From NCBI GenBank assembly GCA_016235045.1, contig JACRME010000016.1:62001-126000 (forward strand): DNA of 64,000 bases. Reading direction: 5' to 3'. Shown piece by piece: positions 34,245 through 64,000 of the stretch. How positions within the stretch are numbered: the first letter of the stretch is position 1; every line of letters begins with the position of its first letter. The notes below the pieces were generated by a model. That model had not been told where the DNA came from and searched no databases. It worked only from the letters and a program-made list of their open reading frames with translations. The position numbers were made by a program, and so were the translations under genes. Source of the DNA: Nitrosomonadales bacterium. Its GTDB lineage: Bacteria; Pseudomonadota; Gammaproteobacteria; Burkholderiales; Gallionellaceae.

Positions 34245-35516
34245 CTATTTCAGTTTTTCGATGCCCAGCATCTTCATGATGCTGCCTTCGTAGAACGGTT
34301 CGGACGTGCCTTTTTTCATCTTGCGGATGAAGTACTTCTCGAACGCGACTTTGGCGAGGTGCACCCATTTGCCTTCGGAGAACCAGTTCACGTTGCGCGG
34401 CGGGATTTGCGGGATGGCGACGAAGGCGACGCCGCTTTCGCCGAAGTCGGCCAGGCACACGGCGTTCCAGGTGGCTTCCTTGTCTGCGGGTTCGCCCACC
34501 AGATCGGCATGGATGTTATGCACGGTGGCGGTCACCATGGATTCGATCATGTAGCCGGTCTTGGGCGTGCCGACCGGAACCGGAGTCGCTTCCACCGACG
34601 GAATGGCGACGCACACGCCAACGGCGAAGACGTTCTTGTATTTCTGGTTGCGTTGGTGTTTGTCCACCGTGACGAAGCCGCGCGCCTGCACCAGTCCATC
34701 GAGGCCGAATACCGCATCCACGCCCTTGAAGGCCGGCAGCATCATGCTGTAGTTGAAGGGCAGCTCGTGCTTCTTTTTCTCGTTGCCCAAGTCGTCGTGT
34801 TCCGTGACGTACATCTTGCCGGCTTCGACTTTGGTGACCTTGGCATTGCAGATCCACTTGATGTGCTTGTCGCGCATGCCGGACTCGAGAATACCGTTGG
34901 AGTCGCCCACGCCGCCCAGGCCGAGGTGGCCGATGTAGGGCTCGGAGGTAACGAAAGTCATCGGTACCTTGTCGCGAATCTTGCGTTTGCGCAGGTCGGT
35001 TTCCATGATGAAGGCATATTCATAAGCCGGGCCGAAGCAGGAGGCGCCTTGTACCGCACCGACCACGATGGGGCCGGGCTTCTTGCAGAATTCGTCCCAA
35101 ACTTCGTGCGACTTCATCGCGTGGTCGATATGGCACACAGAGTAGGTGTGGCCGCCATGCGGTCCAAGTCCTTCGACTTCTTCAAAGGCCAGTTTGGGGC
35201 CGGTGGCGATCACCAGATAGTCGTAGTCGACATGCTTGCCATCGTTCAGTTCGAGCTTGTTCTGGTCCGGATGTACGCGCTTGACGCCCGTGGAGATGAA
35301 TTCGATGCCTTTGCGTTCCAGATAGCTGCGCACCGGGAATTCGATCTGCTTGCGCTCGCGCCACTTCACACCCACCCAGGGATTGGATGGAACGAACTGG
35401 AAGTTCTCGCTGTTCGAGATGACCGTGACTTTATGCTCCTTGTCCAACTTGTCGCGCATTTCGTATGCTGCCGGCATGCCACCCAGACCTGCTCCCATGA
35501 TGACTACATGTGCCAT
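34245..35516 (-). CDS. Sulfide:quinone oxidoreductase-like FAD-dependent oxidoreductase
   Basis: HVVIMGAGLGGMPAAYEMRDKL; VPSNPWVGVKWRERKQIEFPVRSYLERKGIEF; VAIPSVEATPVPVGTPKTGYMIESM. Confidence 0.85.
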   Translation of the reverse strand: MAHVVIMGAGLGGMPAAYEMRDKLDKEHKVTVISNSENFQFVPSNPWVGVKWRERKQIEFPVRSYLERKGIEFISTGVKRVHPDQNKLELNDGKHVDYDYLVIATGPKLAFEEVEGLGPHGGHTYSVCHIDHAMKSHEVWDEFCKKPGPIVVGAVQGASCFGPAYEYAFIMETDLRKRKIRDKVPMTFVTSEPYIGHLGLGGVGDSNGILESGMRDKHIKWICNAKVTKVEAGKMYVTEHDDLGNEKKKHELPFNYSMMLPAFKGVDAVFGLDGLVQARGFVTVDKHQRNQKYKNVFAVGVCVAIPSVEATPVPVGTPKTGYMIESMVTATVHNIHADLVGEPADKEATWNAVCLADFGESGVAFVAIPQIPPRNVNWFSEGKWVHLAKVAFEKYFIRKMKKGTSEPFYEGSIMKMLGIEKLK

Positions 35517-47801: not shown

Positions 47802-50714
47802 ATGTCATCGACTCCATTGCACGACCCCCTCGCTCCCCCGGTTGCGGATGCGAAAACCGAGGTTAAAAACACCACTTGTTATATGTGCGCCTGCCGCTGC
47901 GGCATCCGCGTACACCTGCGCAACGGCGAAGTGCGCTATATCGATGGCAATCCCGACCATCCGTTGAACAACGGCGTGATCTGCGCCAAGGGTTCGTCCG
48001 GCATCATGAAACAGTATTCCCCCGCGCGACTGACCCAGCCGTTGCGCCGCAAGCAGGGCAGCGAGCGCGGTACAGGCGAATTCGAGGCGATTAGCTGGGA
48101 AGAGACTTTCTCCATCCTCGCCGAACGTCTTGGCAAGTTGCGCGCAACCGACCCGAAGAAGTTTGCGCTGTTCACCGGCCGCGACCAGATGCAGGCGCTG
48201 ACCGGCCTGTTTGCGCGCCAGTTTGGCACGCCCAACTATGCCGCGCACGGCGGTTTCTGCTCGGTGAACCTGGCCGCGGGCATGATCTACACCATCGGCG
48301 GCTCGTTCTGGGAATTCGGCGGCCCCGATCTGGAGCGCTCCAAGCTGTTCGTCATGATCGGCACGGCGGAAGACCATCACTCCAACCCGATGAAGATATC
48401 GCTGGCGAAATTCAAGCGCGAAGGCGGCCGCTTCATCTCCATCAACCCGGTGCGCACCGGCTATTCGGCCATTGCCGACGAATGGGTGCCCATCCGTCCG
48501 GGTACGGATGGCGCGCTGATGCTGGCGCTGATCCACGAAATCATCGCGCTCGGCCTGTACGATCGCGAATTCCTGGTGCGTTACACCAACTCCGGGCAAC
48601 TGGTGAACCTCGATGCCGAGCACGATGAATTCGGCATGTTTGTGCGCACCGAAGTAGCCAAGGAAGAAGGCTGTTACGACCCACAGAACAAACTGTGGTG
48701 GGATCGCAACAGCAACAAGGCCGTGGTCACGCACAGTGAAGGCGCCGACCCGTTCCTGCTGGGCGAATTCAAGTTGTCCGACGGCACGCCGGTCAAGCCC
48801 GCGTTCCAGATGCTGCAGGATCGCGTCAAGGATTACACGCCGGAATGGGCGGAGCAGATCACCGGCATTCCAGCCGATACCATCAAGCGCCTGGCGCACG
48901 AGATGGGCATCACCGCACGCGACCAGAAAATCGAGCTGCCGATCGCGTGGACGGACACCTGGGGCAAGGAACACGACACCATCACCGGCAACCCGGTCTC
49001 GTTCCATGCCATGCGCGGACTGGCAGCGCACTCCAACGGTTTCCAGACCATACGCGCATTATCGATACTGATGACGCTGCTGGGCACCATCGACCGACCG
49101 GGCGGTTTCCGCCACAAGCCGCCGTTCCCGCGTCCGATCCCGCCGTGCGCACGCACGCCCAACCATCCCAAGGCAGTGCAGCCGAATACGCCGCTGGACG
49201 GCATGGCGCTGGGCTGGCCGTCCGATCCGGACGACTTGTTCGTCAACGAGGACGGCAGTCCGGTGCGCATCGACAAGGGCTTTTCGTGGGAATACCCGCT
49301 GTCGGTGCACGGCCTGATGCACAACGTCATCACCAATGCCTGGCGCGGCGATCCGTACAAGATCGACACGCTGCTGCTGTTCATGGCCAACATGGCATGG
49401 AACTCCTCCATGAACACCAGCGAAGTGCGCAAGATGCTGGTCGACAAGGAGGAGGACGGCGAATACAAGATTCCGTTCATCGTGGTGTGCGACGCCTTCC
49501 ATTCCGAGACCACCGCGTTCGCCGACCTGATCCTGCCGGACACGACCTATCTCGAACGCCACGACGTGATGTCCATGCTCGATCGTCCGATCTCCGAATT
49601 CGACGGCCCGGTGGATTCGGTGCGCATCCCGGTGCTGCCGCCGACGGGCGAATGCAAGCCGTTCCAGGAAGTGCTGATCGAACTGGGCACGCGTCTCAAG
49701 CTGCCCGCCTTCGTCGACAAGGAAGGCAAGCGCAAGTACCGCGACTATCCCGACTTCATCGTCAACTGGGAGACCGCGCCGGGTTCCGGCATCGGCTTTC
49801 TGTCCGGCTGGCGCGGCAAGGGCGGCGAGAAATCCATCAAGGGCGAACCGAACCCGAACCAGTGGGAAATGTATGCCAAGAACGATTGCGTGCACCACCA
49901 TGTGCTGCCGCGTTCCTACCAGTACATGCGCAACTGGAACAAGGGCTACCTCGAATGGTCGCAGCGCAGCGGCATCACGCGCTATGCGGAACCGATCCTG
50001 ATCCACCTGTATTCGGAAGTGCTGCAGAAATTCCGCCTCGCCGCCCAGGGCAAAAGCATCACGCGCCAGCCGCCCAAGCACCTGGCGAAACGCATCGAGA
50101 CCTTCTTCGATCCGCTGCCGTTCTACTACGAGCCGCTGGAGACGCAGACTACCGACAAGCTCAAATACCCGCTCACTGCATTGACGCAACGCCCGATGGC
50201 GATGTACCACTCGTGGGATTCGCAAAATGCGTGGTTGCGCCAGATTCACGCGCACAACTACCTCTATGTGAATGCAGGCACCGCCAGGGTCGCGGGTATT
50301 GGCGACGGCGACTGGATCTGGTGCGAATCGCAATGGGGCAAGGTGCGTTGCATGGCGCGCTACAGCGAGTCGGTCGAACCCGGCACGGTGTGGACCTGGA
50401 ACGCAGTCGGCAAGGCGGCTGGGGCGTGGAATCTGTCGCCCGAAGCCAACGAGTCGCAGCAGGGTTTCCTGCTCAACCATGTGATCTCGGAAGAGTTGCC
50501 AGCGCAAGCGGACGGCAAACGCTTTTCCAATTCCGATCCGATCACCGGACAGGCGGCCTGGTACGACGTGCGCGTGCGCATCTACAAGGCGGAAGAGGGC
50601 GAACCCGAACAGACCTCGCCGCAATTCGAACCCATGAAGAAATATCCCGGCATGAAAGAACACCCGAACTGGCTGGCCTACTTCGGCGGCAAGAAGAAGG
50701 GCGGTGCGAAATGA
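47802..50714 (+). CDS. soeA: Molybdopterin oxidoreductase, sulfite dehydrogenase SoeA-like
   Basis: CYMCACRCGIRVHLRNGEVRYIDGNPDHPLNNGVICAKGSSG; followed by B and C subunits and next to apr/sat. Confidence 0.85.
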   Translation: MSSTPLHDPLAPPVADAKTEVKNTTCYMCACRCGIRVHLRNGEVRYIDGNPDHPLNNGVICAKGSSGIMKQYSPARLTQPLRRKQGSERGTGEFEAISWEETFSILAERLGKLRATDPKKFALFTGRDQMQALTGLFARQFGTPNYAAHGGFCSVNLAAGMIYTIGGSFWEFGGPDLERSKLFVMIGTAEDHHSNPMKISLAKFKREGGRFISINPVRTGYSAIADEWVPIRPGTDGALMLALIHEIIALGLYDREFLVRYTNSGQLVNLDAEHDEFGMFVRTEVAKEEGCYDPQNKLWWDRNSNKAVVTHSEGADPFLLGEFKLSDGTPVKPAFQMLQDRVKDYTPEWAEQITGIPADTIKRLAHEMGITARDQKIELPIAWTDTWGKEHDTITGNPVSFHAMRGLAAHSNGFQTIRALSILMTLLGTIDRPGGFRHKPPFPRPIPPCARTPNHPKAVQPNTPLDGMALGWPSDPDDLFVNEDGSPVRIDKGFSWEYPLSVHGLMHNVITNAWRGDPYKIDTLLLFMANMAWNSSMNTSEVRKMLVDKEEDGEYKIPFIVVCDAFHSETTAFADLILPDTTYLERHDVMSMLDRPISEFDGPVDSVRIPVLPPTGECKPFQEVLIELGTRLKLPAFVDKEGKRKYRDYPDFIVNWETAPGSGIGFLSGWRGKGGEKSIKGEPNPNQWEMYAKNDCVHHHVLPRSYQYMRNWNKGYLEWSQRSGITRYAEPILIHLYSEVLQKFRLAAQGKSITRQPPKHLAKRIETFFDPLPFYYEPLETQTTDKLKYPLTALTQRPMAMYHSWDSQNAWLRQIHAHNYLYVNAGTARVAGIGDGDWIWCESQWGKVRCMARYSESVEPGTVWTWNAVGKAAGAWNLSPEANESQQGFLLNHVISEELPAQADGKRFSNSDPITGQAAWYDVRVRIYKAEEGEPEQTSPQFEPMKKYPGMKEHPNWLAYFGGKKKGGAK

Positions 50715-51442
50715 CCCAGTTAGCGCTCGTCATCGACCTCAACGTCTGTGTCGGCTGCCACGCCTGCGTGACCAGTTGCAAGGAATGGAACACTTCCGGT
50801 TCCGCCGGGCCGCTGTGCGACGAACGTCCCTATGAGGCCAACCCGACCGGCACCTTCTTCAACCGCGTGCAGACTTTCGAGATCGGCCAGTATCCGCACA
50901 GCGAGACGCTGCATTTCCCCAAATCCTGCCTGCATTGCGAAGATCCTCCCTGCGTGCCGGTGTGCCCGACGGGCGCATCGTACAAGCGCAAGGAAGACGG
51001 CATCGTGCTGGTGGATTACGACAAGTGCATCGGCTGCAAGTATTGCACCTGGGCCTGTCCGTATGGTGCTCGCGAGATCGACGAGAAGCAGCAGGTGATG
51101 AAGAAATGCACCCTGTGCGTGGACCGCATCTACGACATGTCCATGCCGGAGAATGACCGCAAGCCTTCGTGCGTGAAAGCCTGTCCGACCAGCGCGCGCC
51201 TGTTCGGCGATATCCACGATCCTGAATCGGCGGTATCGCTGGCGATACGCGAAGAGGGCGGCTATGCGCTGATGCCGGAGTGGGGCACGCAACCTTCCAA
51301 CCATTATCTGCCGCGGCGCAAGACCAAGCTCAAAATCCACAAGGACGAGTTGGAGCGCGCGGACAATCCGCTCAAGGTCGACGGACAGTTGCCCAAACCG
51401 GGCAAGGGCGAATCGACGATGGACGATGTATCTGCGTGGTAA
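50711..51442 (+). CDS. soeB: 4Fe-4S ferredoxin-type subunit SoeB-like
   Basis: MTQLALVIDLNVCVGCHACVTSCKEWN… CLHCEDPPCVPVCPTGASYKRKEDGIVLVDYDKCIGCKYCTWACPYGAREID; ATGA overlap with soeA. Confidence 0.87.
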   Translation: MTQLALVIDLNVCVGCHACVTSCKEWNTSGSAGPLCDERPYEANPTGTFFNRVQTFEIGQYPHSETLHFPKSCLHCEDPPCVPVCPTGASYKRKEDGIVLVDYDKCIGCKYCTWACPYGAREIDEKQQVMKKCTLCVDRIYDMSMPENDRKPSCVKACPTSARLFGDIHDPESAVSLAIREEGGYALMPEWGTQPSNHYLPRRKTKLKIHKDELERADNPLKVDGQLPKPGKGESTMDDVSAW

Positions 51443-51463
51443 TTCCCTGCGAAGGAAACTGAG

Positions 51464-51528
51464 GTAGGAGCGCAATTTATTGCGCGATTGCGTTCAGGCA
51501 CAATCGCCCGATCAATCGGGCTCCTACA
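51464..51528. repeat. REP-like palindrome between soeB and soeC
   Basis: GTAGGAGCGCAATTTATTGCGCGATTGCGTTCAGGCACAATCGCCCGATCAATCGGGCTCCTAC. Confidence 0.85.
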
Positions 51529-51584
51529 GGACGCAGATGGTTTTTATTCTTTTTGGAAAGACAACCTGTTTACAAAGAAATACT

Positions 51585-52556
51585 ATGAAACCTGCATTCT
51601 CCGTGATTTTCCTGACCACCCTGCTCGGCGCCGGACAGGGCCTTTTCCTGGCGCTGTTTACGCACCAGACCTATGCCTTGTTCGGCCTGCTGCCCATGCA
51701 ATCTGACGCCTACTACGGCTTCGGCAGCGCGCTGGCCATGCTGTTTCTGGGGGGCGGTCTGATCGCTTCGTTCTTCCATCTTGGTCGCCCCGAGCGCGCC
51801 TGGCGTTCCGCCACGCAGTGGCGCACCTCGTGGCTGTCGCGCGAAGTCATCGTGCTGCCCGCGTTCATGGGCGTGGTGTTCCTGTACGGCGTCGTGCATG
51901 TGTTCGGCTACCTGCCCGTGATCGTGACCTTGCCCAGTGGCTTGGTCATCGACCTGTCAATCGTGATCGGTACGCTTGGCACTTTGCTGGCGTTTGCGCT
52001 GTTCGTCTGCACCGGCATGATCTACGCCTGCATTCGTTTCCTGCGCGAATGGAATTCCCCGCTGACGGTGATCAACTATATCCTGATGGGCGGCTCTTCC
52101 GGTTTCATCCTGGCGGCGTTTTTCTCTGCGACCTACGCACCGAGCGAGACGGACTTCTTCGTCGGCTGGGCCATCATCATCACCGTGCTGGCGCTGGCCG
52201 GGCGCGCCGCCTCGCTGCTGCGCAACGCGCGCCTGAAACCGAAATCGACCATGCAGACCGCCATCGGCGTAAAGCACCCCTACATCGTGCAGCGCTCGAT
52301 GGGCTCCATGGGCGGTTCGTTCAACACGCGCGAATATTTCCACGGCAAGAGTGCCGTGTTCCTGCGTGTAATCAAGCCGGCCTTCCTGTTGCTGGGATTC
52401 ATCGTTCCGCTGGCACTGCTGGCACTGGGACTGTTCTCGCCCGCCTTGCTCGGCGTTGCGTTTATACTCCAGTACCTCGGGCTGATGGCGGAGCGCTGGT
52501 TCTTCTTTGCGCAAGCCAACCACCCGCAGAATCTTTACTACCAGACCATAGGCTGA
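51585..52556 (+). CDS. soeC: Membrane anchor SoeC-like (DmsC family)
   Basis: MKPAFSVIFLTTLLGAGQGLFLALFTHQTYALFG… HLGRPERAWRSATQWRTSWLSREV. Confidence 0.87.
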   Translation: MKPAFSVIFLTTLLGAGQGLFLALFTHQTYALFGLLPMQSDAYYGFGSALAMLFLGGGLIASFFHLGRPERAWRSATQWRTSWLSREVIVLPAFMGVVFLYGVVHVFGYLPVIVTLPSGLVIDLSIVIGTLGTLLAFALFVCTGMIYACIRFLREWNSPLTVINYILMGGSSGFILAAFFSATYAPSETDFFVGWAIIITVLALAGRAASLLRNARLKPKSTMQTAIGVKHPYIVQRSMGSMGGSFNTREYFHGKSAVFLRVIKPAFLLLGFIVPLALLALGLFSPALLGVAFILQYLGLMAERWFFFAQANHPQNLYYQTIG

Positions 52557-58270: not shown

Positions 58271-58753
58271 ATGAAAGTGCAAGTTCGCAACACGGTAGAC
58301 ATGGAGCGCCGCCGGGCGCTCAAAGCAAGTGGGGGTCTGGGTCTGCTGGGCTTGTTTGCCGTGCTGGGACTGATGCCGACATCGGCCTTGGCCGGTGTGG
58401 ACAGGAAAGTCTTCGAAGCCAAGTCGCTGAGCGAGGCATTCAAGGCGATGGGCGGACTGGCGCCCGCGGACAGCAACCTCATCAATCTCGACGTGCCGGA
58501 AACCGCCGAAAACGGCGCCATGGTGCCCGTCATCGTGGAATGCAAGTTCCCCCGCACCGAGCAGATCGCCATCCTGGTCGACAAGAATCCGACCGCACTG
58601 GTTGAAAACTGGACGATAGCCGAAGGGACGGAAGGCTACATCTCCACCCGCATCAAGATGGCGCAGACATCGACCGTCATCGCGCTGGTCAAGGCGGACG
58701 GGAAATTCTACAAGGCAGTCAAAGAAGTCAAAGTCACTGCGGGGGGATGCTGA
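58271..58753 (+). CDS. soxY: Thiosulfate-oxidation carrier protein SoxY
   Basis: Tat-like ERRRALKASGGLGLLGLFAVLGL; C-terminus VKVTAGGC*. Confidence 0.93.
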   Translation: MKVQVRNTVDMERRRALKASGGLGLLGLFAVLGLMPTSALAGVDRKVFEAKSLSEAFKAMGGLAPADSNLINLDVPETAENGAMVPVIVECKFPRTEQIAILVDKNPTALVENWTIAEGTEGYISTRIKMAQTSTVIALVKADGKFYKAVKEVKVTAGGC

Positions 58754-59064
58754 TGTCCAACCCGACCAAAATTCGCGCCTCTGCCGCCAATGGCATCACC
58801 GAAGTGCGTGCGCTGATGCAGCACGAAATGGAAACCGGCCGCCGCAAGGATGAATCCGGCAATCTCGTACCCGCATGGTATATCACCGATATCAAGGTTC
58901 AGCATAACGGCAGGACTGTGCTGGAAGGCCAGTTCGGCACTTCCGTTTCCAAGAATCCCTTCCTGGTGTTCCGTTTCAAGGGCGGCACGGCAGGAGACAA
59001 GCTCGCGATCTCCTGGGCGGACAACCGCGGCGAAAAACGTTCGGACGAGGTGGCCATTAGCTGA
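58753..59064 (+). CDS. soxZ: SoxZ
   Basis: EVRALMQHEMETGRRKDESGNLVPAWYITDIKVQHNGRTVLEGQFGTSVSKNPFLVFRFKGG; TGATG overlap with soxY. Confidence 0.95.
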   Translation: MSNPTKIRASAANGITEVRALMQHEMETGRRKDESGNLVPAWYITDIKVQHNGRTVLEGQFGTSVSKNPFLVFRFKGGTAGDKLAISWADNRGEKRSDEVAIS

Positions 59065-59163
59065 TACGACACTCTTAAAAAATCTGTACCTGCCCGGATT
59101 GCTCACGGACAGGTTCTGCATCATTCGAATTTACCAATAATTATTATATGGAGATCGGGAGAA

Positions 59164-59799
59164 ATGGTAGAAGAAGCGCAGAAGGAGAAGCAAGCATCAC
59201 CCAAAGAGAGCATTTGGACGAAACTGAGGCGGCCGCCGAAGTGTTCATTCCTGCTGCTCCTCGTCATCGGCATGTCGTTGGGCATCGCGGTCTGGGGCGG
59301 ACTCAACACCGCCATGGAATGGACTAACCGTTCCGAGTTTTGCATCTCGTGCCACGAGATGACCATTCCCTATGAAGAACTTAAGCAGACGGTTCACTTC
59401 AAGAACCGCAGCGGCACCACCGTCAATTGCTCCGACTGTCACGTCGCCAGCAGCAAGACGCCGACGGACTACATGTTCAAGTCGTTCCAGAAACTGATGG
59501 CTGCCCGCGATGTGATCGGCAAGATCACCGGTGTGGTGGATACGCCCGAGAAGTTCGAGGCGCACCGTCTGGAGATGGCCAAGCGCGTGTGGGCACGGAT
59601 GGAGAGCCGCGATTCGAAGGAGTGCCGCAACTGCCACAACTTTGCCACCATGGATCCGGACAAGCAGAAAGCACGCTCGCAGATCAAGCATGAGGAAGCG
59701 CAGGAAGACAAGATAACGTGTATCGAGTGCCACAAAGGCATCGCGCACAAGCCGATCCAGCATCTGCTGGAAGAGGAAGCCGCCCAGGCGGAAAAATGA
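59164..59799 (+). CDS. NapC/NirT-type tetraheme c-type cytochrome
   Basis: N-terminal TM; four CxxCH: CISCH, CSDCH, CRNCH, CIECH. Confidence 0.93.
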   Translation: MVEEAQKEKQASPKESIWTKLRRPPKCSFLLLLVIGMSLGIAVWGGLNTAMEWTNRSEFCISCHEMTIPYEELKQTVHFKNRSGTTVNCSDCHVASSKTPTDYMFKSFQKLMAARDVIGKITGVVDTPEKFEAHRLEMAKRVWARMESRDSKECRNCHNFATMDPDKQKARSQIKHEEAQEDKITCIECHKGIAHKPIQHLLEEEAAQAEK

Positions 59800-59806
59800 T
59801 CGAACG

Positions 59807-59840
59807 ACGGGATGGTCGCAAGGCCCATCCCGTTTTTTTT
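59807..59840 (+). terminator. Rho-independent terminator
   Basis: ACGGGATGG…CCATCCCGTTTTTTTT. Confidence 0.85.
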
Positions 59841-59863
59841 AATACATGAACGGGAGCTGTTCA

Positions 59864-60865
59864 ATGAAAAAGATCGCAGTGTTGGTAATCAGTGCAGTGT
59901 TGTCCGCGCCGGCGTTCGCCGCGCCGAACTGGAGCAAGGTGCCTTCCAAGAAGGTGCCCGTATTTTATCCCGGCCAGTCCGGCCTCGAGTGGGTGTTGAC
60001 CAAGAAGGATCACTCCGCATCCAACCAGATCCTGGACAAAAAACGCGCCTGTACCAAATGTCACGACACCGATGCCGTGGAGATCGGCGACAAGATCGCG
60101 GCAGGCAAGCCGGTCGGCAATCTGCGCCAGCCGCTGGACGGTGCCGTGCCAAAGGGCAAGGCCGGTTCCATTCCGGTCACCGTGCAGGCAGCGCATGACG
60201 GCAACAAGATTTATCTGCGCTTCGAGTGGGACACACCCAAGAGCGGCGGCGACAAGAAAATGGACCCGAAGAACGACACCAAGCTGACCGTCATGTTCGA
60301 CGACAGCAAGGTCGAGTACGCCGACCGCGGCGGCTGCTGGGCGACCTGCCACGAAGACTTGCGCGGCATGCCCGATGCCAACGATGCAGCCAAGAGCCAT
60401 GCCAAGGCCAAGGCGCTGGGCTGGGGCGAAGGCGCCACCAAGTACATCAGGGAGTCGCGCACCGACCTGACCATGACCGGCAATGCGCGCGGCGGCTGGG
60501 ACAAGCTCAAGTCCGACGCCGAGATCGAGGCCGCGCTCAAGGAGGGCAAGTTCATGGACCTGATGCAGTTCCGCAGCAAGGAAAAAGCGGCTGACGGTTA
60601 TGTGCTGGAGACGCGCCACATGGACGGCGGCAAGAGCCTGATCAAGGCCGAAGGCAAGAAGAGCGGCAAACACTGGACGGTGATATTCGAGCGCACGCTG
60701 GCCGCCGGCGGCAAGGGCGACCACGCCATTGCGGCGGGCAAGCTTTACAACATCGGTTTCGCCATCCACGACGACAACGCCGACGGACGTTTCCACCAGG
60801 TGTCGCTGGGTTACACGCTCGGGCTGGATAACGATGCGGCAGATTTCAACGCGGTGAAACAGTGA
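59864..60865 (+). CDS. Ethylbenzene-dehydrogenase-like haem-binding domain protein with N-terminal c-haem motif
   Basis: Signal peptide; KRACTKCHDTD; GGCWATCHEDLRG; IPVTVQAAHDGNKIYLRFEWDTP…. Confidence 0.75.
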   Translation: MKKIAVLVISAVLSAPAFAAPNWSKVPSKKVPVFYPGQSGLEWVLTKKDHSASNQILDKKRACTKCHDTDAVEIGDKIAAGKPVGNLRQPLDGAVPKGKAGSIPVTVQAAHDGNKIYLRFEWDTPKSGGDKKMDPKNDTKLTVMFDDSKVEYADRGGCWATCHEDLRGMPDANDAAKSHAKAKALGWGEGATKYIRESRTDLTMTGNARGGWDKLKSDAEIEAALKEGKFMDLMQFRSKEKAADGYVLETRHMDGGKSLIKAEGKKSGKHWTVIFERTLAAGGKGDHAIAAGKLYNIGFAIHDDNADGRFHQVSLGYTLGLDNDAADFNAVKQ

Positions 60866-60987
60866 CGAACAGGATCAAGCATTACGGCAACAACGTAATA
60901 AGCAGCAAGCAATAAAAAGCATTAAAGGCAGTGGGAGCGGCCGCCTTCGTTTGAAGGTGTGTTATTCACAGAGAGAGGAGTCGAAAA

Positions 60988-61566
60988 ATGAGAAGAAAGT
61001 TGAGTGTAATGACCCTGGCGCTTGGAGCCATGGTTGTATCGGCTGCGGCGTATGCAATTCCGCCAACCGCAGAGATACTGTCTTATGCTTGCGCCGGATG
61101 CCACGGTACCAGCGGCGCCAGCGCGGGGCCGAGCATGCCCAGTCTGGCCGGGCAAAACAAGGCCTTCTTTGTCGATGCGATGAAGAAGTTCAAGAGCGGC
61201 GAGCGCACCGGCACCGTCATGGCGCGGCTGGCCAAGGGCTACAGCGACGAGCAGATCGTCGCCATGGCCGACTTTTTCGCCAAGCAGAAACGCGCTTCCC
61301 AGACCACGGAAATCGATCCGGCACTGGTCGCCCAGGGCAAGGTCGTCTATGACAACGCCTGCAAGCGTTGCCACCTGGAAAGCGGCAAGGAGTTCGAGGA
61401 AGACACTCCGGTCGTTGCAGGCCAGTGGCTGAAGTACCTGCAAATCCAGATGGGCGAATTCCGCGACGGCAAGCGCAAGATCTCGGACAAGAAGGCGGAG
61501 AAAGTGAAGTCGCTGACCGCCGCCGACTGGGAAGCTGCGGCGCATTTCTATGCCAGCCAGAAATAA
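60988..61566 (+). CDS. Diheme cytochrome c (c4/FccA-like)
   Basis: Signal peptide; CAGCHGTSGASAGPSMPSLAGQ and CKRCHLESGKEF; directly upstream of fccB. Confidence 0.87.
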   Translation: MRRKLSVMTLALGAMVVSAAAYAIPPTAEILSYACAGCHGTSGASAGPSMPSLAGQNKAFFVDAMKKFKSGERTGTVMARLAKGYSDEQIVAMADFFAKQKRASQTTEIDPALVAQGKVVYDNACKRCHLESGKEFEEDTPVVAGQWLKYLQIQMGEFRDGKRKISDKKAEKVKSLTAADWEAAAHFYASQK

Positions 61567-61582
61567 CAAGGAGACAGACAAC

Positions 61583-62848
61583 ATGACTATGGAACGCAGA
61601 AATTTCCTCAAGCTCCTCGGCGCCGGCGCCGGTGCTGCCACGCTGGGCCTGGCCGGTTGTGCCACGACCAACAAGGCGGGCGCACGCAAGGTGGTGGTGG
61701 TCGGCGGCGGCTACGGCGGCACGATCGCGGCCAAGTACATCCGCATGCAGGATCCCACCCTCGAGGTGACCCTGATCGAGCGCAACGACCATTTCATTTC
61801 CTGCCCGTTCAGCAACCTGTATATCGGCGGCCTGATGCCGGACCTGTCTTCGCTGACCATCAAGTATGATCAGCTCGCGACCAACCATGGCATCAAGGTG
61901 GTGCAGGCCGAAGTCACCGCCATCGATGCCAAGGCGCATGTCGTGAAGACCAGCAAAGGCGACTTCCCTTACGAGAAGTGCGTGGTGTCTCCCGGTATCG
62001 ATTTCCGCACCAACGAGATCAAGGGCTATGACCCGGAGATCATGCCGCACGCCTGGAAGGCCGGTCCGCAGACCGTGCTGCTGCGCAAGCAGCTCGAGGC
62101 GATGAAGCCGGGCGGCACCGTCATCCTGTCCATCCCGCTGGCGCCGTTCCGCTGCCCGCCCGGACCGTACGAGCGTACCAGCATGATCGCGATGTACCTC
62201 AAGCAGAACAAGCCCGGCTCCAAGATCATCGTGCTGGATGCCAATCCGGATATCGTCTCCAAGAAGGGCCTGTTCCTGAAGGGCTGGAAGAAGCACTACG
62301 AGGGCATCATCGACTACCGTCCCGCCAAGAAGGTCACCGAAGTGGACAACAAGAACATGTCGGTGCTGGTCGAGGGTATCGAAGAGATCAAGGGCGATGT
62401 CATCAACATCATTCCGCCGCAAAAAGCGGGCGCCATTGCGCACACCGCCGGTCTGGTCGGTGCCGACGGCAAATGGTGCCCGGTGCGCTCCTTCGACTTC
62501 GAGTCGAGGAACCATCCGGACATCCATGTCATCGGCGATTCCTCCATCGCGGGTGCGATGCCCAAGTCCGGCTACTCCGCCAACTCGGAAGCCAAAGTCT
62601 GCGCCACCAACATCGTGGCGATGATGAACGGCCGCAAGATGACGGAGATGTCCGCGATCAACACCTGCTACAGCTACCTGTCGGCCAAGGAAGCGGTCAG
62701 CGTGACCGGCGTGTATCGCGTGAATGCGAGTACACAGGCCATCGAGGCGGTGCCTGGCTCGGTCGGCGTTTCTGCTGATTTGTCAGAGACCGAAGCGATG
62801 TACGCGGAAAGCTGGATCAGGAATATCCTGCACGAGATGTCGACCTGA
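61583..62848 (+). CDS. fccB: Flavocytochrome c sulfide dehydrogenase flavoprotein subunit
   Basis: MERRNFLKLLGAGAGAATLGLAGC; KVVVVGGGYGGTIAAKYIRMQDPTLEVTLIERNDHFISCPFSNLYIGG. Confidence 0.93.
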   Translation: MTMERRNFLKLLGAGAGAATLGLAGCATTNKAGARKVVVVGGGYGGTIAAKYIRMQDPTLEVTLIERNDHFISCPFSNLYIGGLMPDLSSLTIKYDQLATNHGIKVVQAEVTAIDAKAHVVKTSKGDFPYEKCVVSPGIDFRTNEIKGYDPEIMPHAWKAGPQTVLLRKQLEAMKPGGTVILSIPLAPFRCPPGPYERTSMIAMYLKQNKPGSKIIVLDANPDIVSKKGLFLKGWKKHYEGIIDYRPAKKVTEVDNKNMSVLVEGIEEIKGDVINIIPPQKAGAIAHTAGLVGADGKWCPVRSFDFESRNHPDIHVIGDSSIAGAMPKSGYSANSEAKVCATNIVAMMNGRKMTEMSAINTCYSYLSAKEAVSVTGVYRVNASTQAIEAVPGSVGVSADLSETEAMYAESWIRNILHEMST

Positions 62849-62873
62849 TTCGGAAATGTAGTTGTCGATCAAA

Positions 62874-62908
62874 CCCTGTCTGGAAGTCTGCCAGGCAGGG
62901 TTTTTTTA
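62874..62908 (+). terminator. Rho-independent terminator after fccB
   Basis: CCCTGTCTGGAAGTCTGCCAGGCAGGGTTTTTTT. Confidence 0.8.
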
Positions 62909-62930
62909 GTTGTATAGGGAGATCAAATTC

Positions 62931-64000
62931 ATGGATGCATCAAACTTAACCACATTCGTTGTCTGGTGTGGATTCGGGCTGGGAGTCGCGTTCGGCTTCA
63001 TTGCTAACAAAACCAATTTCTGCACGATGGGCGCCATCTCGGATGTCGTCAACATGGAACACTGGGGGCGTATGCGCGCATGGCTGCTCGCCATGGCGGT
63101 CGCCATGATCGGCGTCAGCGCGCTGGCCTATGTCAATGCCGTGAATTTTTCCGAAACTCTGTATGCCAGCAAGAATTTCTACTGGTTGAGTTATATTTTC
63201 GGGGGCTTGTGCTTCGGCGTCGGTATGACACTGGCCGGCGGGTGCGCCAACAAGAACCTGGTGCGCTTGGGCGGCGGCAATCTGAGATCGCTTGTGGTCA
63301 TCTTCTTCATGGGCTTTGCCGCGATCGTCACCCTGAAAGGGGTGCTGGGCACTTTCCGCATCAATGTGCTGCAATCGCCTTTCGGCACGCTCTATTTCGA
63401 GAACGGCCAGCTTCTGCCCGCGCTGCTTTCCGGAACCGGCGGCATCACCGCGCAAACCCTGCAGTTGGCGATGACCGGCGCAGTGGCACTGACCATCATC
63501 CTTTTTGTGTACAAGGACGAGAAGTTCCGCAAGAGTTTCAATAATAACCTGTCGGCTTTGATCATCGGCGTAATCGTGGCGGGGAGCTGGTATGTCACCG
63601 GTCATCTCGGTCTGGCGGAAAATCCCGAGACGCTGGAAATGACCTATTTCGGCACCAGTTCCAACCGGCCCGAATCGATGTCGTTCGTCGCCCCATCGGC
63701 TTACAGCCTGGAGTATCTGGCCTATTCGACTGATGTCTCGAAGATCGTCACCTTCGGCATCGCCACCGTCCTGGGTGTCGCCTTCGGCTCGTTCATCTAC
63801 GCGCTGGTCAGCAAGTCCTTTCGCTGGGAAGCTTTTTCTTCCGTGCAGGACATGTTCTTCCACATCGGCGGTGCGGTATTGATGGGCTTCGGTGCGGTCT
63901 GTGCGGCGGGATGCACCATCGGGCAAGGTATCACCGGCATCTCGACGCTCTCGCTGGGGTCTTTGCTGGCGCTTCTGTCCATCATCGCGGGTTCCGCCAT
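62931..64000 (+). CDS. YeeE/YedE family (sulfur-transport-like) membrane protein, truncated by the window edge
   Basis: Open frame from ATG 62931 to the end: CGFGLGVAFGFIANKTNFCTMGAISD… GGLCFGVGMTLAGGCANKNLVRLGGGNLRS… GAVCAAGCTIGQGITGIS; absent from the ORF track because it has no stop. Confidence 0.92.
   Translation, partial: MDASNLTTFVVWCGFGLGVAFGFIANKTNFCTMGAISDVVNMEHWGRMRAWLLAMAVAMIGVSALAYVNAVNFSETLYASKNFYWLSYIFGGLCFGVGMTLAGGCANKNLVRLGGGNLRSLVVIFFMGFAAIVTLKGVLGTFRINVLQSPFGTLYFENGQLLPALLSGTGGITAQTLQLAMTGAVALTIILFVYKDEKFRKSFNNNLSALIIGVIVAGSWYVTGHLGLAENPETLEMTYFGTSSNRPESMSFVAPSAYSLEYLAYSTDVSKIVTFGIATVLGVAFGSFIYALVSKSFRWEAFSSVQDMFFHIGGAVLMGFGAVCAAGCTIGQGITGISTLSLGSLLALLSIIAGSA

Follow-up and report, generated by a model that had tools for sequence, protein, structure and literature searches.

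Flavocytochrome c sulfide dehydrogenase (FCSD) is usually described as reducing soluble cytochrome c, so that its electrons enter past the quinone pool and serve an autotroph less well than those from a sulfide:quinone reductase (SQR). The operon described here, which joins one clade of FCSD to a NapC-type membrane cytochrome, offers a concrete and testable path for FCSD electrons to quinone. It is encoded within positions 58271-62848 of a stretch of 64,000 nucleotides (the window; contig positions 62001-126000) from the 3.15 Mb, 95%-complete genome of a Nitrosomonadales bacterium, whose nearest named relatives, found via the EB_dh protein of the operon, are Gallionellaceae/Nitrosomonadales (Sideroxyarcus, Sideroxydans, Gallionella). 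Related architectures were described for Azospira suillum PS, in which PcrO and NapO are diheme homologues of the gamma subunit of ethylbenzene dehydrogenase (EBDH) that partner the NapC/NirT proteins PcrQ and NapC, and for PcrQ/PcrO and NapC/NapO electron transfer between quinone and perchlorate or nitrate reductase was shown by deletion analysis (PMC5845722). The window likewise encodes a NapC/NirT tetraheme together with a periplasmic EBDH-gamma homologue, while the enzyme partner is FccAB instead of a perchlorate or nitrate reductase. The NapC/NirT protein ImoA of Sideroxydans lithotrophicus ES-1 was proposed to act as quinone reducer, and quinol oxidation was shown for it in Shewanella (PMC13390432). 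ImoA and the window's NapC are both Gallionellaceae membrane tetrahemes with a proposed electron flow from a donor to quinone; however, ImoA receives electrons from an Fe(II) pathway through PmcA (PMC13390432), and the window's NapC would receive them from FccAB. The gamma subunits of ethylbenzene dehydrogenase (EbdC, 2ivf_C) and of type II dimethyl sulfoxide (DMSO) reductases share the EB_dh fold, but the window operon has no molybdenum alpha/beta subunit and its EB_dh has extra c-haem motifs.

A sequence-only reading of the window had listed soxYZ, a NapC-type tetraheme, an EBDH-gamma-like haem protein, a diheme cytochrome and FccB, and this gene set is borne out by profiles, motifs and folds. 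The six genes of 58271-62848 (soxY1, soxZ1, NapC/NirT tetraheme, EB_dh, fccA and fccB) all lie on one strand (+), and the last four of them constitute the unit considered here:

59164..59799, + strand: NapC/NirT-family membrane tetraheme cytochrome, first gene of the four-gene unit (PF03264, four CXXCH)
59864..60865, + strand: EB_dh, periplasmic cytochrome of the EBDH-gamma fold (PF09459 with 131 bits, CXXCH and CX3CH, fold, tree)
60988..61566, + strand: fccA, diheme subunit of FCSD (3vrd_A, E 2e-41; 1fcd_C, E 5e-40)
61583..62848, + strand: fccB, flavoprotein subunit of FCSD with a twin-arginine translocation (Tat) signal (PF21706 and PF09242 above cut-off)

The sequence-only reading had suggested analyzing the co-occurrence of EBDH-like, napC-like and fccAB genes. 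Profiles of fcc-linked EB_dh proteins were used to scan 85,462 species genomes, and 80 named loci were kept; these were picked by similarity to fcc-linked proteins and the figures describe that clade, not all EB_dh proteins. NapC, EB_dh, FccA and FccB are encoded together and co-oriented in 75 of the 80 loci, all betaproteobacterial, and in the other five the absent gene is lost at a contig end. The unit is present in Gallionellaceae, Rhodocyclaceae, Sulfuritalea, Thiobacillus, Comamonadaceae and related metagenome-assembled genomes. NapC and EB_dh are fused as a single protein with five CXXCH motifs in 18 of the 80 loci (e.g., L104, L106, L112, L115, L125, L131, L135). Among 398 sampled genomes of the order, FccB was found in 184, an EB_dh relative in 28 and the four-gene unit in nine, the source genome included. 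NapC and EB_dh are absent at 40 FccB loci from outside the known units; these were chosen as unlinked and provide context and controls for the trees, not a rate. NapC-EB_dh-FccA-FccB is a conserved four-gene operon, best explained as one functional unit. Its parts are known and their arrangement is new, and in the open-access literature searched no description of FccAB together with NapC/EBDH was found. At L068, L110 and L132 a protein of approximately 490-520 amino acids with eight CXXCH motifs is encoded near the unit.

The tetraheme cytochrome clearly belongs to the NapC/NirT family (215.7 bits for PF03264 vs. a cut-off of 24.1), but it stays below the cut-offs for NapC proper, the nitrate-reduction equivalog (NCBIfam napC_nirT and NapC, 222.8 vs. 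310.6 and 208 vs. 349 bits, respectively). Four more NapC/NirT-family tetraheme genes are located elsewhere in the genome on three other contigs. For EB_dh, an AlphaFold model with a predicted local distance difference test (pLDDT) score of 61, which gives the fold and is too weak for haem-ligand placement, has 2ivf_C (EBDH gamma; E 1.3e-8, best) and 7b04_C (NXR-C) as nearest solved folds. Two possible c-haem motifs, CXXCH and the unusual CX3CH, occur in all full-length relatives scanned from both clades described below, where it is assumed that CX3CH binds haem. It was considered whether EB_dh is the gamma subunit of a nearby molybdoenzyme. This was rejected: the match to the model of type II DMSO-reductase gamma subunits of the EbdC type is far below cut-off (TIGR03477, 28.4 vs. 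169.85 bits), the conserved four-gene unit contains no type II molybdenum subunit, and the SoeABC-like genes of the window (47883-52556) lie outside of it. The combination of EB_dh fold, NapC-type neighbour and two c-haem motifs is that of NapO and PcrO, and the EB_dh protein is thus predicted to be a NapO/PcrO-like carrier, a kinship by description and architecture. The sequence-only reading had left it as an unassigned carrier, a label that falls away with the description of these counterparts (PMC5845722). This places the EBDH-like cytochrome among the NapO/PcrO-type carriers, with the relay reused together with an electron-donating enzyme.

The diheme cytochrome aligns with the FCSD haem subunits 3vrd_A and 1fcd_C over residues 26-191, i.e., nearly its full length, and has two CXXCH motifs; an independent carrier was rejected in favour of FccA on account of this nearly end-to-end match. 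FccB matches the solved structures 5n1t_A (E 3e-118) and 1fcd_A (E 2e-110), and it has a cysteine at all three key cysteine positions of FCSD, which in this family belong to the flavin adenine dinucleotide (FAD) site and the redox pair. As the diheme cytochrome is FccA, fccAB is complete in the window, and the enzyme is predicted by homology to oxidise sulfide. FccA and FccB domains and the key cysteines are shared with the known FCSDs (1fcd, 3vrd, 5n1t), which in contrast have no NapC/EB_dh partner, and the linked FccBs form a clade of their own.

All trees were quick ones with approximate likelihood-ratio test (aLRT) support only. In the EB_dh tree the fcc-linked proteins fall on one side of a branch with 100% aLRT, with one change compared to a mean of 20 after shuffling, and in the NapC tree the fcc-linked proteins likewise form their own clade (99%). 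The linked FccBs fall into one deep clade (99%) holding just two unlinked members. The other EB_dh relatives in the order are encoded with a NapC-type gene and an adjoining protein of 540-565 amino acids, with nap-type genes close by in several. This adjoining protein is NirS (PF02239) in seven of eight tested cases, and the eighth, beside the pair of L045, is CcmH-like. On two annotated plasmids nirS is followed by a NapC-EB_dh fusion gene, the nir-linked NapC-EB_dh is fused in alphaproteobacteria, and several genomes hold a separate nir-linked pair alongside the fcc-linked one. The NirS-linked pairs and fusions contain the same two proteins with both haem motifs in the same order; they differ in forming a separate clade in the EB_dh and NapC trees and in having cytochrome cd1 as acceptor.

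The unit is flanked and interrupted by the following features:

58271..58753 (alternative start 58301), + strand: soxY1 (PF13501; TIGR04488, 146.9 bits vs. cut-off 125)
58753..59064, + strand: soxZ1 (PF08770, TIGR04490), its start codon overlapping the soxY1 stop codon
59807..59841, + strand: terminator-like hairpin between NapC and EB_dh (9-bp stem, T8)
62871..62909, + strand: terminator-like hairpin after fccB (13-pair)
62928..64000, continuing beyond the window end, + strand: YeeE/TsuA-like sulfur transporter (PF04143), a neighbour outside the four-gene unit

A soxY gene is located up to 4 kb upstream of the unit in only nine of the 80 loci, mostly of Gallionellaceae type (L068-L075). Furthermore, within the family, and even within a single genus (L157, L161), the slot between soxYZ and tusA is occupied by an ordinary fccAB (46-49% identical) without NapC/EB_dh. 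For these two reasons the NapC/EB_dh pair belongs with its own FccAB clade and not with SoxYZ, the idea that SoxYZ generally belongs to the electron module was rejected, and a soxYZ next to the unit is a trait of the sulfur island of Gallionellaceae. From the periplasmic route between SoxYZ/FccAB and quinone envisaged in the sequence-only reading, the part connecting FccAB to quinone therefore gains from the conservation of the unit, while the SoxYZ part does not hold for most units, which have no soxYZ beside them.

SoxY1 ends in KVTAGGC with Cys as the last residue, and thus does not have the canonical GGCGG arm despite passing TIGR04488, while SoxY2, encoded further downstream in the genome, ends in GGCGG. 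Besides soxY1, ten distinct Gallionellaceae-type soxY beside fccAB (L068-L075, L157, L161) end in GGC, with or without NapC/EB_dh, whereas 14 distinct SoxY encoded beside soxA/X/B end in GGCG or GGCGG; where a genome has both kinds, the SoxY from its soxYZAXB operon ends in GGCGG. As fccB-adjacent SoxY outside the Gallionellaceae-type group have other endings (GGCGA, SGCGM and more), the SoxY ending in Cys is lineage-specific. The terminal-cysteine SoxY gives a further starting point for studying the release of sulfane sulfur from FCSD.

The sequence-only reading had noted the absence of soxB, soxXA and soxCD. This is correct inside the window, but soxY2-soxZ2-soxA-soxX-soxB is encoded on the same contig at approximately 128624-132930, its first gene 2.6 kb beyond the window end and each gene exceeding its NCBIfam cut-off. 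The suggested genome search thus found soxA, soxX and soxB next to the window, and a lack of soxXAB in the organism was rejected as a window-edge effect. Approximately 8 kb lie between the two SoxY genes of the genome, and soxXA, soxB and soxYZ are all present on the contig. SoxC had no match in the 95%-complete genome, in which soxD was not searched for. Downstream of soxYZAXB follow a DUF302 gene, tusA, a dsrE2-type gene and dsrAB with small dsr-like genes; upstream of soxY1 the window contains aprAB, sat, a SoeABC-like set and SulP-type permeases. The arrangement is of the well-known branched Sox-Dsr type, and the premise of missing sox genes stands for soxC only. As evidence against itself the sequence-only reading had named a sox cluster elsewhere that is co-regulated with this soxYZ, together with independent transcription of the cytochromes; half of this was found, soxYZAXB lying close by. 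Overall that reading is partly supported, with the genes confirmed, the headline premise corrected and the interpretation upheld in part. The window also contains a gene for an SQR-like flavoprotein (34245-35516, - strand), whose best NCBIfam match is the type III sulfide:quinone reductase model, below cut-off. Given this gene, the genome probably encodes another sulfide-oxidising enzyme besides FccAB.

In the path we propose, FccB would oxidise sulfide (or persulfide) in the periplasm and pass the electrons to FccA, a step established for FCSD and assigned here by homology. FccA would reduce the EB_dh carrier as counterpart of NapO/PcrO, and EB_dh would exchange electrons with the tetraheme NapC in the membrane, which in turn would exchange them with the quinone pool. 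The contact between FccA and EB_dh is supported by the steady linkage to one FccAB clade and that between EB_dh and NapC by the adjacency and fusion of the genes. SoxYZ, encoded next to the unit, is a carrier of sulfur and may accept the sulfane product; it goes with FccAB and not with NapC/EB_dh, and works in a genome in which soxXAB, dsr, apr, sat and soe genes are present as well. The net flow would most likely run from sulfide to quinone, which would make the set a multi-protein sulfide:quinone reductase. With quinone 100-300 mV above S0/H2S (PMC5358917), electron flow from sulfide to quinone is downhill and the reverse uphill. The quinone reduction proposed for ImoA (PMC13390432) points the same way. 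The data show the identities of the genes, the conservation of the operon and its linkage in single clades; physical electron transfer, its direction and the sulfur hand-over are what we infer. That FccAB oxidises sulfide and is connected to the quinone pool by EB_dh and NapC has, in our view, an even chance of being right. The fuller proposal, in which FccAB, a dedicated EB_dh carrier and NapC make up a four-protein periplasmic sulfide:quinone reductase, a second enzymatic way from sulfide to quinone beside SQR, that in Gallionellaceae passes sulfur to the Cys-ending SoxYZ, is tentative.

The path from FccAB to quinone is favoured by the finding that within one family the FccAB slot holds either the four-gene unit or, as in L157 and L161, an ordinary fccAB. 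Several observations weigh against it. FCSD electrons normally go to soluble cytochrome c, most FccAB-bearing genomes of the order have no NapC/EB_dh pair, which is therefore not required for FCSD, the SQR-like gene makes a second route from sulfide to quinone redundant, and a terminator-like hairpin separates NapC from EB_dh. Characterised NapC-type proteins oxidise quinol (PMC5845722), as did ImoA in Shewanella (PMC13390432). The main rival explanation is that EB_dh collects electrons both from FccAB (sulfide) and from NapC (quinol) and delivers them to a periplasmic acceptor, for example NirS or an oxidase-feeding cytochrome c, so that quinone is not reduced. It agrees with the sister clade of NapC-EB_dh pairs adjoining nirS, with the presence of NirS in the genome, with the window's EB_dh gene being the only one there, and with several carriers of the unit being named as denitrifiers. 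However, the conserved unit contains no terminal reductase, nirS of the source genome is distant from it on another contig, and the separate nir-linked pair kept beside the fcc-linked one in several genomes suggests a division of labour; we consider this explanation rather unlikely.

The quinol oxidation by NapC-type proteins could also mean that electrons run from quinol via NapC and EB_dh to FccAB, reducing sulfur, polysulfide or persulfide. This direction would be uphill by the potentials given above, in a genome whose gene layout is geared to oxidising sulfur (soxXAB, dsr, apr, sat, soe), and is improbable. Similarly improbable, if not slightly more so, is a sox-poor organism with a single route made up of SoxYZ, NapC, EB_dh and FccAB, within which SoxYZ would exchange electrons or sulfane sulfur. 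The soxYZ directly upstream, both in the window and in the eight loci L068-L075, and the particular arm ending of the fcc-adjacent SoxY fit such a route, but soxY is rare upstream of the unit and the soxYZ-fccAB of L157 and L161 lacks the pair. SoxYZ is not known to carry a redox cofactor. As worded, this explanation is largely refuted by the neighbouring soxYZAXB.

The hairpin between NapC and EB_dh may be an attenuator that sets different levels, or a boundary of two transcripts. In L068-L075 hairpins fold in the same gap, followed by a T-tract in only some. Scanning for promoters gave no consensus sites and was uninformative. A two-component system (contig 126115-128509) separates the YeeE gene from soxYZAXB, consisting of a kinase with a phosphonate-binding-type sensor domain and a LuxR-type regulator.

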